DNA from: Microbacterium paludicola
Lineage (GTDB): Bacteria > Actinomycetota > Actinomycetes > Actinomycetales > Microbacteriaceae
Assembly: GCF_015235415.1 (NCBI RefSeq)
Contig: NZ_JADGLL010000002.1
Span: forward strand, 62,001 to 126,000
Reading direction: 5' to 3'
Length of the DNA: 64,000 bases
This document shows positions 10,773-51,809 of this stretch, piece by piece; position 1 is the first letter of the stretch; each line of letters starts with the position of its first letter. Under the pieces are notes generated by a model that worked only from the letters and a program-made list of their open reading frames with translations, was not told the origin of the DNA and ran no database searches. Both the position numbers and the translations under genes were made by a program.

Positions 10773-11035
10773 GAGGCAAGTCTGACAGGGGCCACCGACA
10801 TTCCACCGTCGCGGAAACACCTGATCCCCGGTGGTTTCGACTGTGGAGAAGAGACAGGGTCGGGAGGGGTGTGGACGAGGCAACGGGGCCGTGGCACTCA
10901 GCCCCACGGGCGCGTCCGGGGTGGTTTCGACTCGCTTCGCTCGCTCAACCCGTTTCGACTCCGCTTCGCTCCGCTCAACGACCGGAAGCGCGGTGCAACC
11001 AACGGGCGAACCGACCGGGAGGGGCGTGAGCCCGA

Positions 11036-11132
11036 CCGCGGGTCAGCGGAGGCGAGGGGTTCGGCGGCGAAGCAGGGGTGAGCCTGCGAACCGGGCCCCA
11101 ACTTCGCCGACGAATCCCTGCCGAAGCGGAAC
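11036..11132 (+). repeat. 97-bp direct repeat, copy 1
   Basis: Nearly identical to 11400-11497, 364 bp downstream. It starts CCGCGGGTCAGCGGAGGCGA. It contains an inverted pair, CGGCGAAG / CTTCGCCG, around an inner CAGG..CCTG hairpin and a GGGCCCC palindrome, so it could fold as single-stranded DNA or RNA. It encodes nothing recognisable. Confidence 0.85.
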
Positions 11133-11399
11133 CGACCACGGCAGCGGCCGCGAACAGCACAACCCGTTTCGACTCGCTTCGCTCGCTCAACAACCGGAGT
11201 GGTACAAGCCACGGGTGAGCCCGGGGCGGCTTCGACTCGCTTCGCTCGCTCAGCCCGTTTCGACTCCGTTTCGCTCCGCTCAACGACCGGAAGCGCGTAC
11301 AACCCACGGCCGGTTTGGGCGTTTCGACACTTCGACTCGCTCCGCTCGCTCAGTGCGGCGCTCGCTTCGCTCGCTCAACGACCGGGTGGTGCGAACCGC

Positions 11400-11497
11400 C
11401 CGCGGGTCAGCGGAGGCGAGGGGTTCGGCGGCGAAGTAGGGGTGAGCCTGCGAACCGGGCCCCAACTTCGCCGACGAACCCCCTGCCGCAGCGGAAC
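11400..11497 (+). repeat. 97-bp direct repeat, copy 2
   Basis: Second copy of the 11036-11132 repeat, differing at a handful of positions including one extra base. Both copies are preceded and followed by GAGCGAGC-type palindromes, which suggests that the whole segment (palindrome plus 97-bp unit) was duplicated. Confidence 0.85.
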
Positions 11498-11607
11498 CCC
11501 CACGACACCGGGCCAACGAACAGCACAACCCCGTTTCGACTCGCTCCGCTCGCTCAACGACCGGGAGGGACTCGATCGAGGGGCCCGAAGGGGACAGACT
11601 GCTGAGC

Positions 11608-31796: not shown

Positions 31797-32729
31797 TCAG
31801 CCGACGACGCGCGCGCCCGGCACGGGCCCGTGCACGTGCAGCGCGGGGAACCCCGCGGTCTCGAGGTCGGTGAGCAGTTCGAGCGCGTGCTCGGCCGATC
31901 CGCACAGGAACGCCAGCGTCGGCCCCGAGCCGGAGACGATGCCCGCCAGCGCGCCGGCGGCCTCGCCGTGCTCGAGCACCGCCGCGAGGTCCGGCCGCAG
32001 CCTCAGCGTCGCGACCTGCAGATCGTTGCGGAGCGCGGCGGCGAGCATCGCGGCGTCTCCCGCCCGCAGGGCGTGAAGCACCTCGGGATCGACCGACGGG
32101 CGCTGCACGACGGGGCCGATGTCGACTTTGTGGCGCTCGCGGTGCGCGTCGAGCTCGCCGTACACCTTCGGCGTCGACACTCCCTCGTCGCTCGTGACCA
32201 GCACCCAGTCGAACCGCCCGCGCGCCAGGGCGGGGTTCAGCACGTCACCGCGACCGGTGCCGACCGCGGTGCCGCCCTTGAGCGCGAAGGGGACGTCGGC
32301 GCCGAGCCGCGCGGCGAGACGGTGGAGCTCCTGGCCTGTCAGGCGCGTGTCCCACAGCGCATCGCACGCCAGCAGTGCCGCGGCGGCATCCGCCGATCCG
32401 CCGCCCATACCGCCTGCCACCGGCACCTGCTTGTAGACGTCGAGGTGCACGCCGCCCTCGTAGCCCGTCTCCTCGGCGAGCAGCATCGCCGCACGCAGGG
32501 CGAGGTTGCGCTCATCGGTGGGAACGCCGTCGAGGTCGACGGTGCCGCTGACGGTCATGCTGAAGCCCTCGGCGGCGGTCGCCACGACGTCTTCGTACAG
32601 CGACACCGCCTGGAAGGCCGTGGCGAGCTCGTGGTAGCCGTCGCCCTGCAGCGCGCCCACCTCGAGGTAGACGTTGATCTTCCCCGGCGCGCGCACGCGC
32701 ACCGACGGGATCTCCTCGGCGAACGTCAC
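31797..32729 (-). CDS. ispE: 4-diphosphocytidyl-2-C-methyl-D-erythritol kinase IspE
   Basis: A 310-residue GHMP kinase of the MEP isoprenoid pathway that phosphorylates CDP-methylerythritol at the 2-OH. It has [13 protein letters not shown] near the start, the ATP-binding glycine loop [15 protein letters not shown], and [10 protein letters not shown] near the end. The GTG at 32729 leaves nine residues ahead of the first conserved motif. The frame stays open upstream through a tandem repeat that would add VRRTERA-type peptides, which is unlikely to be real coding. That repeat also supplies the GGAG about 9 bases upstream. It belongs to the metG-tatD-rsmA-ispE cluster. Confidence 0.93.
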
Positions 32730-32891
32730 TTCGTCTCGCTCCGCTCGCTCAGTACGGCGCACTTCGTCTCGCTCCGCTCGCTCAGTACGGCGCACTTCGT
32801 CCGGCGTCGCTCGCTCAGTACGGCGCACTTCGTCCGGCGTCGCTCGCTCAGTACGGCGCACTTCGTCCGGCGTCGCTCGCTCAGTACGGCG
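32727..32891. repeat. five 33-bp tandem repeats between rsmA and ispE
   Basis: Five head-to-tail copies of 33 bp, each reading CACTTCGTC...CGCTCGCTCAGTACGGCG, in two variants: copies 1-2 have TCGCTCCGCTCGC, and copies 3-5 have CGGCGTCGCTCGC. A sixth decayed copy follows. The core belongs to the GAGCGAGC palindrome family. Since 33 bp equals 11 codons, copy-number change leaves the ispE frame open, and each copy carries a GTG in that frame. Confidence 0.95.
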
Positions 32892-32968
32892 CTTGCGTCG
32901 AGGTCTCGCGGGGAGTGGCTCACGTTCCCCAGGCTATCCGGGGTTCCGGGACCGGATCCGCTCCGCCG

Positions 32969-50884: not shown

Positions 50885-51197
50885 GCCCGGGTGCAGCCGG
50901 CCGGTTGCTGAGCGGGCGCAGCGAGCTGCTGAAGCCTCTCCGCCCGTTGCTGTCGGTCATCTCGACTCGCAAGCTCGCTCGATAACCGGTGGTGTCACCC
51001 GGTTGCTGAGCGAGCGAAGCGAGCCGAAGCGACCCTCCGAAGCCCCGCCGCCCGTTGCAGCCGGTCATCTCGACTCGCAAGCTCGCTCGATAACCGGTGG
51101 CGCCAAACCCCCGGTTGCTGAGCGAGCGAAGCGAGCCGAAGCGACCGGCCTGTGGATAGCTCCGGCGCCGACCGGCCGGACGCCGTAGCTTCACGCC
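50885..51197. repeat. left part of the repeat array around the GIY-YIG gene
   Basis: Gene-free. It holds roughly two and a half units of about 110 bp, each made of two oppositely oriented 35-bp palindromic elements: GGTCATCTCGACTCGCAAGC.. ..TCGCTCGATAACCGG and CCGGTTGCTGAGCGAGCGAA.. ..GCGAGCCGAAGCGACC, with a GAAGCCCCGCCGCCCGTTGC linker. The last complete stretch, 51051-51146, recurs at 51591-51686 on the other side of the gene with about five differences. Confidence 0.88.
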
Positions 51198-51512
51198 ATG
51201 GCGTATCTGTATGTGCTCGAGTGCCGAGACGGCACGCTGTACACCGGCAGCACGATCGACCTCGAACGACGACTCGCCGCTCACCAGATCGGCGAGGGCG
51301 CTGAGTACACCCGCCACCGCCTCCCCGTGAAGCTGCTCTGGTGCGCCCAGTTCGACCGGATCGAGGACGCATTCCGCTGGGAGAAGCGGATGCAGGGATG
51401 GAGCCATGCGAAGAAGCTGCGATTCATCGCCGGCGGCGTCGAGGCGATCCGCGGCTACAGCGCGGAGGACCGCCGAAGGCGCCTGTCATCCCCATCGGAT
51501 ACGGGCGCCTGA
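51198..51512 (+). CDS. GIY-YIG nuclease domain protein
   Basis: A 104-residue single-domain protein of the small GIY-YIG (UPF0213/YhbQ-like) class. The two motifs appear as YLYVLECRDGTLYTGST, followed by the conserved Arg of LERRLAAHQ and FRWEKRMQGWSHAKK with the metal-binding Glu. Such proteins have a nuclease fold; YhbQ-type members are proposed to act on DNA, but the role is unclear. The gene is bracketed on both sides by the same roughly 110-bp repeat units, as if it had been inserted into a tandem array. ATG at 51198; no operon partner. Confidence 0.87.
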   Translation: MAYLYVLECRDGTLYTGSTIDLERRLAAHQIGEGAEYTRHRLPVKLLWCAQFDRIEDAFRWEKRMQGWSHAKKLRFIAGGVEAIRGYSAEDRRRRLSSPSDTGA

Positions 51513-51514
51513 GG

Positions 51515-51809
51515 CCCGTCATCTCGACTCGCAAGCTCGCTCGATAACCGAACCGGTTGCTGAGCGAGCGAAGCGAGCCGAAGCGACTCGCCCGTTGCAG
51601 CCAGTCATCTCGACTCGCAAGCTCGCTCGATAACCGGTGGTGTCACACTCCCGGTTGCTGAGCGAGCGAAGCGAGCCGAAGCGACCCACCGAAGCCCCAC
51701 CGCCGGTTGCAGCGGTCATCTCGACTCGCTGCGCTCGCTCGATAACCGAGATACGTCCGCTCGCTCGATAACCGAGGTGCGCGCACTCGCTCGATAACCG
51801 TGACCGGCG
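51515..51809. repeat. right part of the repeat array around the GIY-YIG gene
   Basis: Gene-free. It begins within 3 bp of the GIY-YIG stop codon with a CCCGTCATCTCGACTCGCAA element, continues with further units like those at 50885-51197, and ends in two decayed half-elements reading CGCTCGCTCGATAACCG, just before the thiolase stop codon. Confidence 0.88.

Follow-up and report, generated by a model that had tools for sequence, protein, structure and literature searches.

A small gene of Microbacterium paludicola and the palindromic repeats on both of its sides look like a co-evolving pair, enzyme and recognition site, that moves together around genomes, as judged by comparison of sequences within the genus and beyond it. 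The reading we favor, and consider probable on balance, is that the gene encodes a site-specific GIY-YIG nuclease flanked by its own hairpin sites, with gene and sites moving as a block much like a REPtron (REP repeats together with a RAYT, or TnpA-REP, transposase). The window examined is a stretch of 64,000 nucleotides, to which all coordinates refer, and its repeat type is called class A. The relevant features, in order of position, are as follows:

10926..11560, minus strand: dispersed class-A cluster, lacking a nuclease gene like the one at 51198
32727..32892, minus strand: dispersed 33-bp tandem of a class-A-like element, five copies, without such a nuclease gene
50901..50943, plus strand: degenerate copy of a plus-type element, upstream of the gene (70% to the reference, family D3)
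50954..50988, minus strand: full quasi-palindrome, minus type (GGTTATC/GATGACC outer stem)
51001..51034, plus strand: full quasi-palindrome, plus type (GGTTGCT/AGCGACC outer stem)
51061..51097, minus strand: full quasi-palindrome, minus type
51111..51148, plus strand: full quasi-palindrome, plus type
51198..51512, plus strand: GIY-YIG nuclease gene, 104 aa, single domain, UPF0213-like (PF01541, phmmer, AlphaFold2, Foldseek)
51518..51548, minus strand: full quasi-palindrome, minus type, five bases after the stop codon
51555..51588, plus strand: full quasi-palindrome, plus type
51601..51637, minus strand: full quasi-palindrome, minus type
51653..51686, plus strand: full quasi-palindrome, plus type
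51713..51748, minus strand: full quasi-palindrome, minus type with a GCGCAGC center
51749..51800, minus strand: pair of truncated half-elements (...CGCTCGCTCGATAACCG) belonging to a 26-bp tandem

Nine full quasi-palindromes thus surround the gene, four upstream (50954-51148) and five downstream (51518-51748), and both ends of the array carry degenerate or truncated copies in addition. The original prediction, made from the letters of the window, had described two oppositely oriented 35-bp palindromes in each unit of a tandem array of about 110 bp; orientation does alternate strictly and the elements measure 31-38 nt, but the palindromes are imperfect, and the spacing of like elements, 108 bp upstream, is uneven downstream (86 and ~112 bp), so that "tandem array" is roughly right. 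The match it saw between the two flanks, at an offset of 540 bp with about five differences, stands at 95% identity over 98 nt (51049-51146 against 51589-51686). In the 3.29-Mb source genome the core GAGCGAGCGNAGCGAGNCGAA, with up to two mismatches allowed, occurs 78+94 times (172 matches) against 0+0 for the reversed control, an abundance far beyond chance.

The predicted 104-residue GIY-YIG gene at 51198-51512 is confirmed by its open reading frame and by a match to PF01541 (E 2.3e-14, 53.9 bits against a gathering cut-off of 22.6), the single domain of the protein, other Pfam domains being absent. The nearest solved structures found with phmmer are the UPF0213 proteins 1zg2 (E 6e-17) and 1ywl, and the AlphaFold2 model (mean pLDDT 92.6) has its best Foldseek matches in UPF0213 (E 1.9e-6), with Slx1 matched more weakly. 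GIY-YIG enzymes hydrolyse DNA, and residues Y5, Y15, R25 and E62, which we take to be the catalytic positions of the fold (Y, Y, R, E), are invariant in 31 aligned sequences (the window protein and 30 relatives). Most repeat-linked proteins carry the motif EKxxQGW, of which ERRIHGW is a variant. The source genome has two nuclease genes of this kind; the second lies on another contig, is 49% identical, and has sister-type palindromes downstream only. Relatives also occur in phage and plasmid records (19 and 21, respectively), every one below 60% identity.

On the purine-rich strand, plus-type elements read GGTTGCT-GAGC-GAGC-GAA-GCGAG-C-CGA-AGCGACC and minus-type elements GGTTATC-GAGCGAGC-TT-GCGAG-T-CGA-GATGACC. 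The outer stem of the window elements is fully paired, including one T-G; inside it GA lies opposite GA, making two tandem G-A mismatches, followed by a G-C pair and a one-base bulge, and a second, similar GA/GA step precedes the loop. Plus and minus types differ in three neighboring outer pairs, on both sides and with pairing kept, a compensatory change within the window itself. DNA accommodates tandem G-A steps and GNA loops as stable structures. Where the purine-rich strand has its G-A mismatches, its complement would have C-T, and the proposed structure is therefore strand-specific, as in REP and IS200/IS605 sites. Nearest-neighbor DNA folding showed no unusual stability for either strand (z -1.1 to +1.4, ten strands); folding energy was consequently dropped as proof of the hairpin, and the fold is argued from covariation only.

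An early hint that the hairpin strand serves as template for the lagging strand, a plus-strand run among the matches listed for one genome, was also dropped; a strict element scan of two single-contig chromosomes found no consistent orientation with respect to replication (in blocks from both sides of the origin, 4+/0- and 8+/12- in G099 and 28+/52- and 8+/12- in G049).

The covariation itself is pronounced. When GAG-N3-6-CGA was collected near the genes with no condition on a stem, outer pairs 1-5 were Watson-Crick at a frequency of 0.49-0.66 against 0.29-0.35 after shuffling, and far from the genes there was no clear excess (0.26-0.31 against 0.25-0.30). In two element sets, with at most two distinct elements per locus, the covariation score was 0.673 against 0.184 (55 elements) and 0.451 against 0.141 (47 elements), none of 500 shuffles reaching the observed value in either set, and the signal was lost when the pairing partner was slid; GAG...CGA and part of the inner letters were imposed by the regular expressions that defined these sets, which leaves the five outer pairs as the only ones unaffected by selection. 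The sequences show a general site in which a stem of nearly arbitrary sequence, about 4-9 bp long, is followed by GAG...CGA and then by the complementary stem; the outer stem covaries, and the GAG/CGA part is not Watson-Crick throughout.

The same site surrounds related genes well outside the genus. A scan of named genomes confirmed at least 419 relatives, and the best 80, which we analyzed, span Actinomycetota, Bacteroidota, Chloroflexota, Cyanobacteriota, Pseudomonadota and others. When all trinucleotide pairs just inside a 4-bp complementary stem were tabulated for these 80, GAG/CGA ranked first; such an element lies within 500 bp of the gene at 78 of the 80 loci (373 elements in 78 kb), compared with 27 of 80 at a distance of 1-2.5 kb (48 elements in 220 kb), and for the loci outside Microbacterium among them the figures are 61/63 near the gene and 16/63 at 1-2.5 kb. 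Two flank types were counted through the genomes of 40 of these loci. At least three copies of a GCTCT-centered site were present in all 12 genomes with that flank type or near variants and in 1 of 28 others, and at least six copies of a GNA-centered site in all 16 genomes of its type; the GNA type is less exclusive, since it also reached this number in 10 of 24 others.

To resolve the association within one genus, we used 149 Microbacterium genomes drawn evenly from a larger group, 62 of which gave protein matches at E<=1e-5 (76 in total); 71 loci were fetched, five matches lying outside this set. Recurrent 12-mers cluster less than 500 bp from the gene and for the most part are no longer seen past 1 kb (exceptions include L053, L063 and L066); they define three repeat classes: A, the window type; B, TCGAGTAG...GTAYCGAGA; and C, CCTGAGCNYGYCGAAGG. 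Words of a gene's own class occur within 600 bp on both sides at 59 of the 71 loci and on one side at nine, three loci being unclassed. Under a strict rule (full element, outer stem of at least 5) both sides are occupied at 31 loci, one at 21 and none at 19, and with a 4-bp stem at least one element lies within 500 bp at 67/71 nuclease loci versus 8/30 loci of the control gene rsmE. The alternation of the window array is not general, as adjacent elements at the genus loci are opposite in 54 cases and in the same orientation in 57.

Protein phylogeny and repeat class agree closely. On a maximum-likelihood tree of 69 proteins (the short proteins L084 and L099 lie outside it), the 67 labeled loci (39 A, 13 B and 15 C; rows L093 and L101 have no class label) require two changes of flank class, the minimum, compared with a mean of 25.1 after shuffling and none as low in 200 shuffles. 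Support is good for clades A and C and weaker for B (77/29; one change in 80% of bootstrap trees). In each of nine genomes that have two genes of different clades, its own class alone stands beside each gene (9/9). Moreover, between two genes that we take, from their protein sequences, to be rsmG and parA, four clade-A genes are found with A repeats and 11 clade-B genes with B repeats, the exception being a single stray class-B word at the clade-A locus L066. Class is therefore explained by the protein and not by the place or the genome, and the comparison shows that every nuclease clade is accompanied by a repeat class specific to it. These results bear on passive association, in which the repeats are intergenic hot spots or terminators where a mobile nuclease gene happens to land: single elements standing alone in intergenic DNA without the gene (L240, and L239 by eye) would suit it, yet it is already contradicted by a class that follows the protein in the two-gene genomes and at rsmG-parA and by the agreement of the 67 loci at the minimum number of changes, and we regard it as very improbable.

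Several further observations concern these loci. The rsmG-parA gap is a landing site common to clade-A and clade-B genes and their arrays (L062, L063, L066, L067, L069-L071, L073-L077, L079, L080 and L082), and copies of GTTTCACGTGAAAC, presumably parS, are frequent in it. At three clade-C genes (L086, L088 and L092) class-C repeats enter the reading frame at the 3' end and supply the nuclease C-terminus DAST(S/G)SAT, which is repeated in L086 and L088. In G049:C1, clusters at 0.70-1.08 Mb include some arrays with 8-10 class-A elements in a row in the same orientation, in contrast to the alternating array of the window.

Repeat numbers across whole genomes also go with the gene, in line with the original prediction, which had proposed comparing copy number with gene presence. 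Class-A counts, net of a reversed-pattern control, have a median of 107.5 in the 38 genomes with a clade-A gene and 13 in the 111 without (p 3e-16; this and the following p-values are optimistic because related genomes are not independent), with L084, L099, L093 and L101 assigned to clades by sequence likeness or tree position. The medians for class B are 8 in 14 clade-B genomes and 0 in 135 others (p 2e-24), and for class C 77 in 17 clade-C genomes and 1 in 132 others (p 8e-11); of the cross terms only one was significant, C being slightly more numerous in genomes that carry A genes (p 0.008). With cut-offs picked after the counts were known, at least 40 class-A repeats occur in 31/38 genomes with a clade-A gene (7/38 have fewer), and at least 15 class-C repeats in 16/17 genomes with a clade-C gene and 21/132 without. 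Class B is present in 13/14 genomes with a clade-B gene and 4/135 without; three of these four (G017, G047 and G074) have unplaced GIY-YIG matches and one (G003) has none, and in G018, the sole clade-B genome lacking the class-B pattern, the gene is accompanied by a variant of the class-B repeat.

Equal abundance of the repeats without the gene, which the original prediction had named as counting against it, is not the general result, but 14/111 genomes without a clade-A gene do reach 40 class-A repeats. Eleven of these 14, with 44-142 net class-A repeats, have no detectable gene (G079, G130, G065, G143, G038, G022, G094, G080, G147, G106 and G116): all 11 had given no GIY-YIG match, and a profile search of them came up empty as well (best E 0.012); they are candidates for recent loss or for another mobilizer. 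Genomes that are rich in repeats and lack a gene of the matching clade mean that repeats can occur without the gene.

Gene and repeats also occupy many different positions. At 39 of the 71 genus loci the pair of neighboring genes is shared with no other fetched locus, and at 30 neither neighbor is shared (flanks of 1.5-2 kb), as the original prediction anticipated in suggesting that gene and flanking units might occur as a block at different sites; a conserved gene position in relatives that lack the repeats, which would have spoken against it, is not the general pattern. A thiolase gene that neighbors the window locus had no match at E<=1e-100 in 34 other genus genomes searched and was dropped as a marker of empty sites in favor of rsmE, which had a match in 56 of 59 genomes. 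Among the 30 rsmE loci fetched, 27 adjoin HIT, none of them with a nuclease gene. The empty sites that had been proposed are found here, the rsmE-HIT gap being 17-160 bp at these 27 loci as against 584 and 1247 bp at the two loci with the nuclease gene. The element scan found one element over the 27 gene-free sites, and at least one further element, missed by the scan, is visible by eye at that of the source genome (L239). As the empty rsmE-HIT sites are mostly repeat-free, the repeats probably came with the gene, and gene and array probably arrived there together. The comparison of loci thus shows a block of gene and repeats that is present at many sites and has empty sites elsewhere.

Blocks at new sites and empty sites elsewhere, together with the GIY-YIG fold, are also what one would expect of a selfish gene resembling a homing endonuclease, for which the repeats would be the cut and insertion site and which would move by double-strand break repair. 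On that account, however, the scarcity of repeats at the empty rsmE-HIT sites is awkward, as the repeats probably came with the gene, and neither an intron family nor an extra DNA-binding domain was found (Rfam, Pfam and the AlphaFold2 model); the Rfam search at the locus returned miRNA families alone, all far below the gathering score. We consider it unlikely.

In the REPtron-like reading that we prefer, a free-standing, single-domain GIY-YIG endonuclease would have the flanking quasi-palindromes as its own recognition sites. When single-stranded, the purine-rich strand would form a hairpin: GAG and CGA would contribute the two tandem G-A mismatches, the G-C pair and the one-base bulge, and a short loop (in many cases GNA) or a more extended inner stem would cap the structure. 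The nuclease would bind this hairpin and nick it at or near the site. Nicking at the repeats followed by recombination or copying could spread single repeats and at times move the whole gene-plus-array block. In functional terms the result would be a REPtron whose HUH transposase is replaced by a GIY-YIG nuclease.

The same nuclease and sites could also serve without mobilization, the enzyme cutting incoming or replicating single strands and so limiting or shaping transformation and recombination, while the repeats would owe their spread to something else and be retained as self marks or recombination boundaries. This is quite possible, if short of probable. It predicts the same pairing of clade and class, it accommodates repeats that persist in genomes without the gene, and we know of no GIY-YIG enzyme that joins strands as HUH transposases do; by itself it does not account for the crowding of repeats less than about 500 bp from almost all gene copies, or for the movement of blocks. 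Repeats without the gene are neutral between spreading and the policing of incoming DNA, which the enzyme might also combine, and the build-up beside the gene and the apparent movement of blocks favor spreading of the repeats by cutting.

Extended beyond these loci, the REPtron-like reading suggests that many anonymous bacterial TGAG...CGAA palindromes are tandem G-A single-strand hairpins owned and spread by small GIY-YIG nucleases, a generalization that we offer tentatively and with some doubt. If true, REPtrons would come in a second kind that does without a transposase, and nuclease clade and hairpin would be evolving together in many phyla. To our knowledge, the spread of widespread bacterial repeats of this sort is unexplained, and the present data put forward a candidate enzyme and a structural rule for them. 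They also provide many natural nuclease-site pairs whose specificity sequence comparison can reveal (one genus has three classes), and the origin of the repeats and the recognition of the hairpin are therefore directly testable. Sequence-specific single-strand nucleases would, in addition, be useful tools.

Among known systems, the closest in architecture are REPtrons, the analogy drawn in the original prediction, and it holds in that the gene is flanked by small palindromes of a genome-wide family, while the enzyme, with PF01541 as its only domain, is not an HUH transposase. REPtrons likewise have an enzyme that acts on a single-stranded repeat, as we infer here, and a gene and repeat family that are not strictly coupled, there being no obvious correlation between transposase genes and REP families (PMC3733652). 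They differ in the enzyme (HUH/Y1 instead of GIY-YIG, with no HUH/Y1 transposase between the window repeats), in the GTAG tag at the foot of the palindrome, which is absent from the nine window elements, and in the site core, which here is GAG/CGA. The word GIY-YIG is absent from the main text of two REP surveys (PMC3733652; PMC12306157). Our literature searches, which covered mainly openly licensed papers, found among those listed no paper pairing a GIY-YIG nuclease with such repeats and no occurrence of the repeat strings as text.

Escherichia coli YhbQ and other UPF0213 proteins (1zg2, 1ywl) resemble the window protein in fold and domain size, with 36% identity over 78 aa to YhbQ. However, yhbQ has coding genes close by on both sides (one 50 bp away, the other overlapping it), which leaves no room for an array, and its product has neither the EKxxQGW motif nor the ERRIHGW variant. 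GIY-YIG homing endonucleases share the catalytic fold and the apparent mobility; in contrast, the window gene is a free-standing, intergenic open reading frame of 104 aa with no intron or intein found, and it combines the lack of a separate DNA-binding domain with dispersed hairpin sites.

The nearest known system is the Ssn family. Ssn of Neisseria meningitidis is reportedly a site-specific single-strand GIY-YIG nuclease with NTS repeats, the subject of a 2025 paper, that limits or shapes transformation and polices incoming DNA, and the family is said to include many homologues with sites of their own. The remark in the original prediction that no GIY-YIG protein is known to act on such repeats therefore appears outdated, and the literature very probably already includes a dedicated nuclease of this fold together with its repeats. 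The likeness lies in a small, single-domain GIY-YIG protein (104 aa and one domain in the window) and a dedicated, many-copy repeat that is also found around the genes, a repeat linked to the nuclease here by association. Compared with Ssn, and subject to the Ssn paper, what is added here is the tandem G-A hairpin rule, with GAG/CGA inside a freely covarying stem, the pairing of clade and class within one genus, and the moving blocks of gene plus array.
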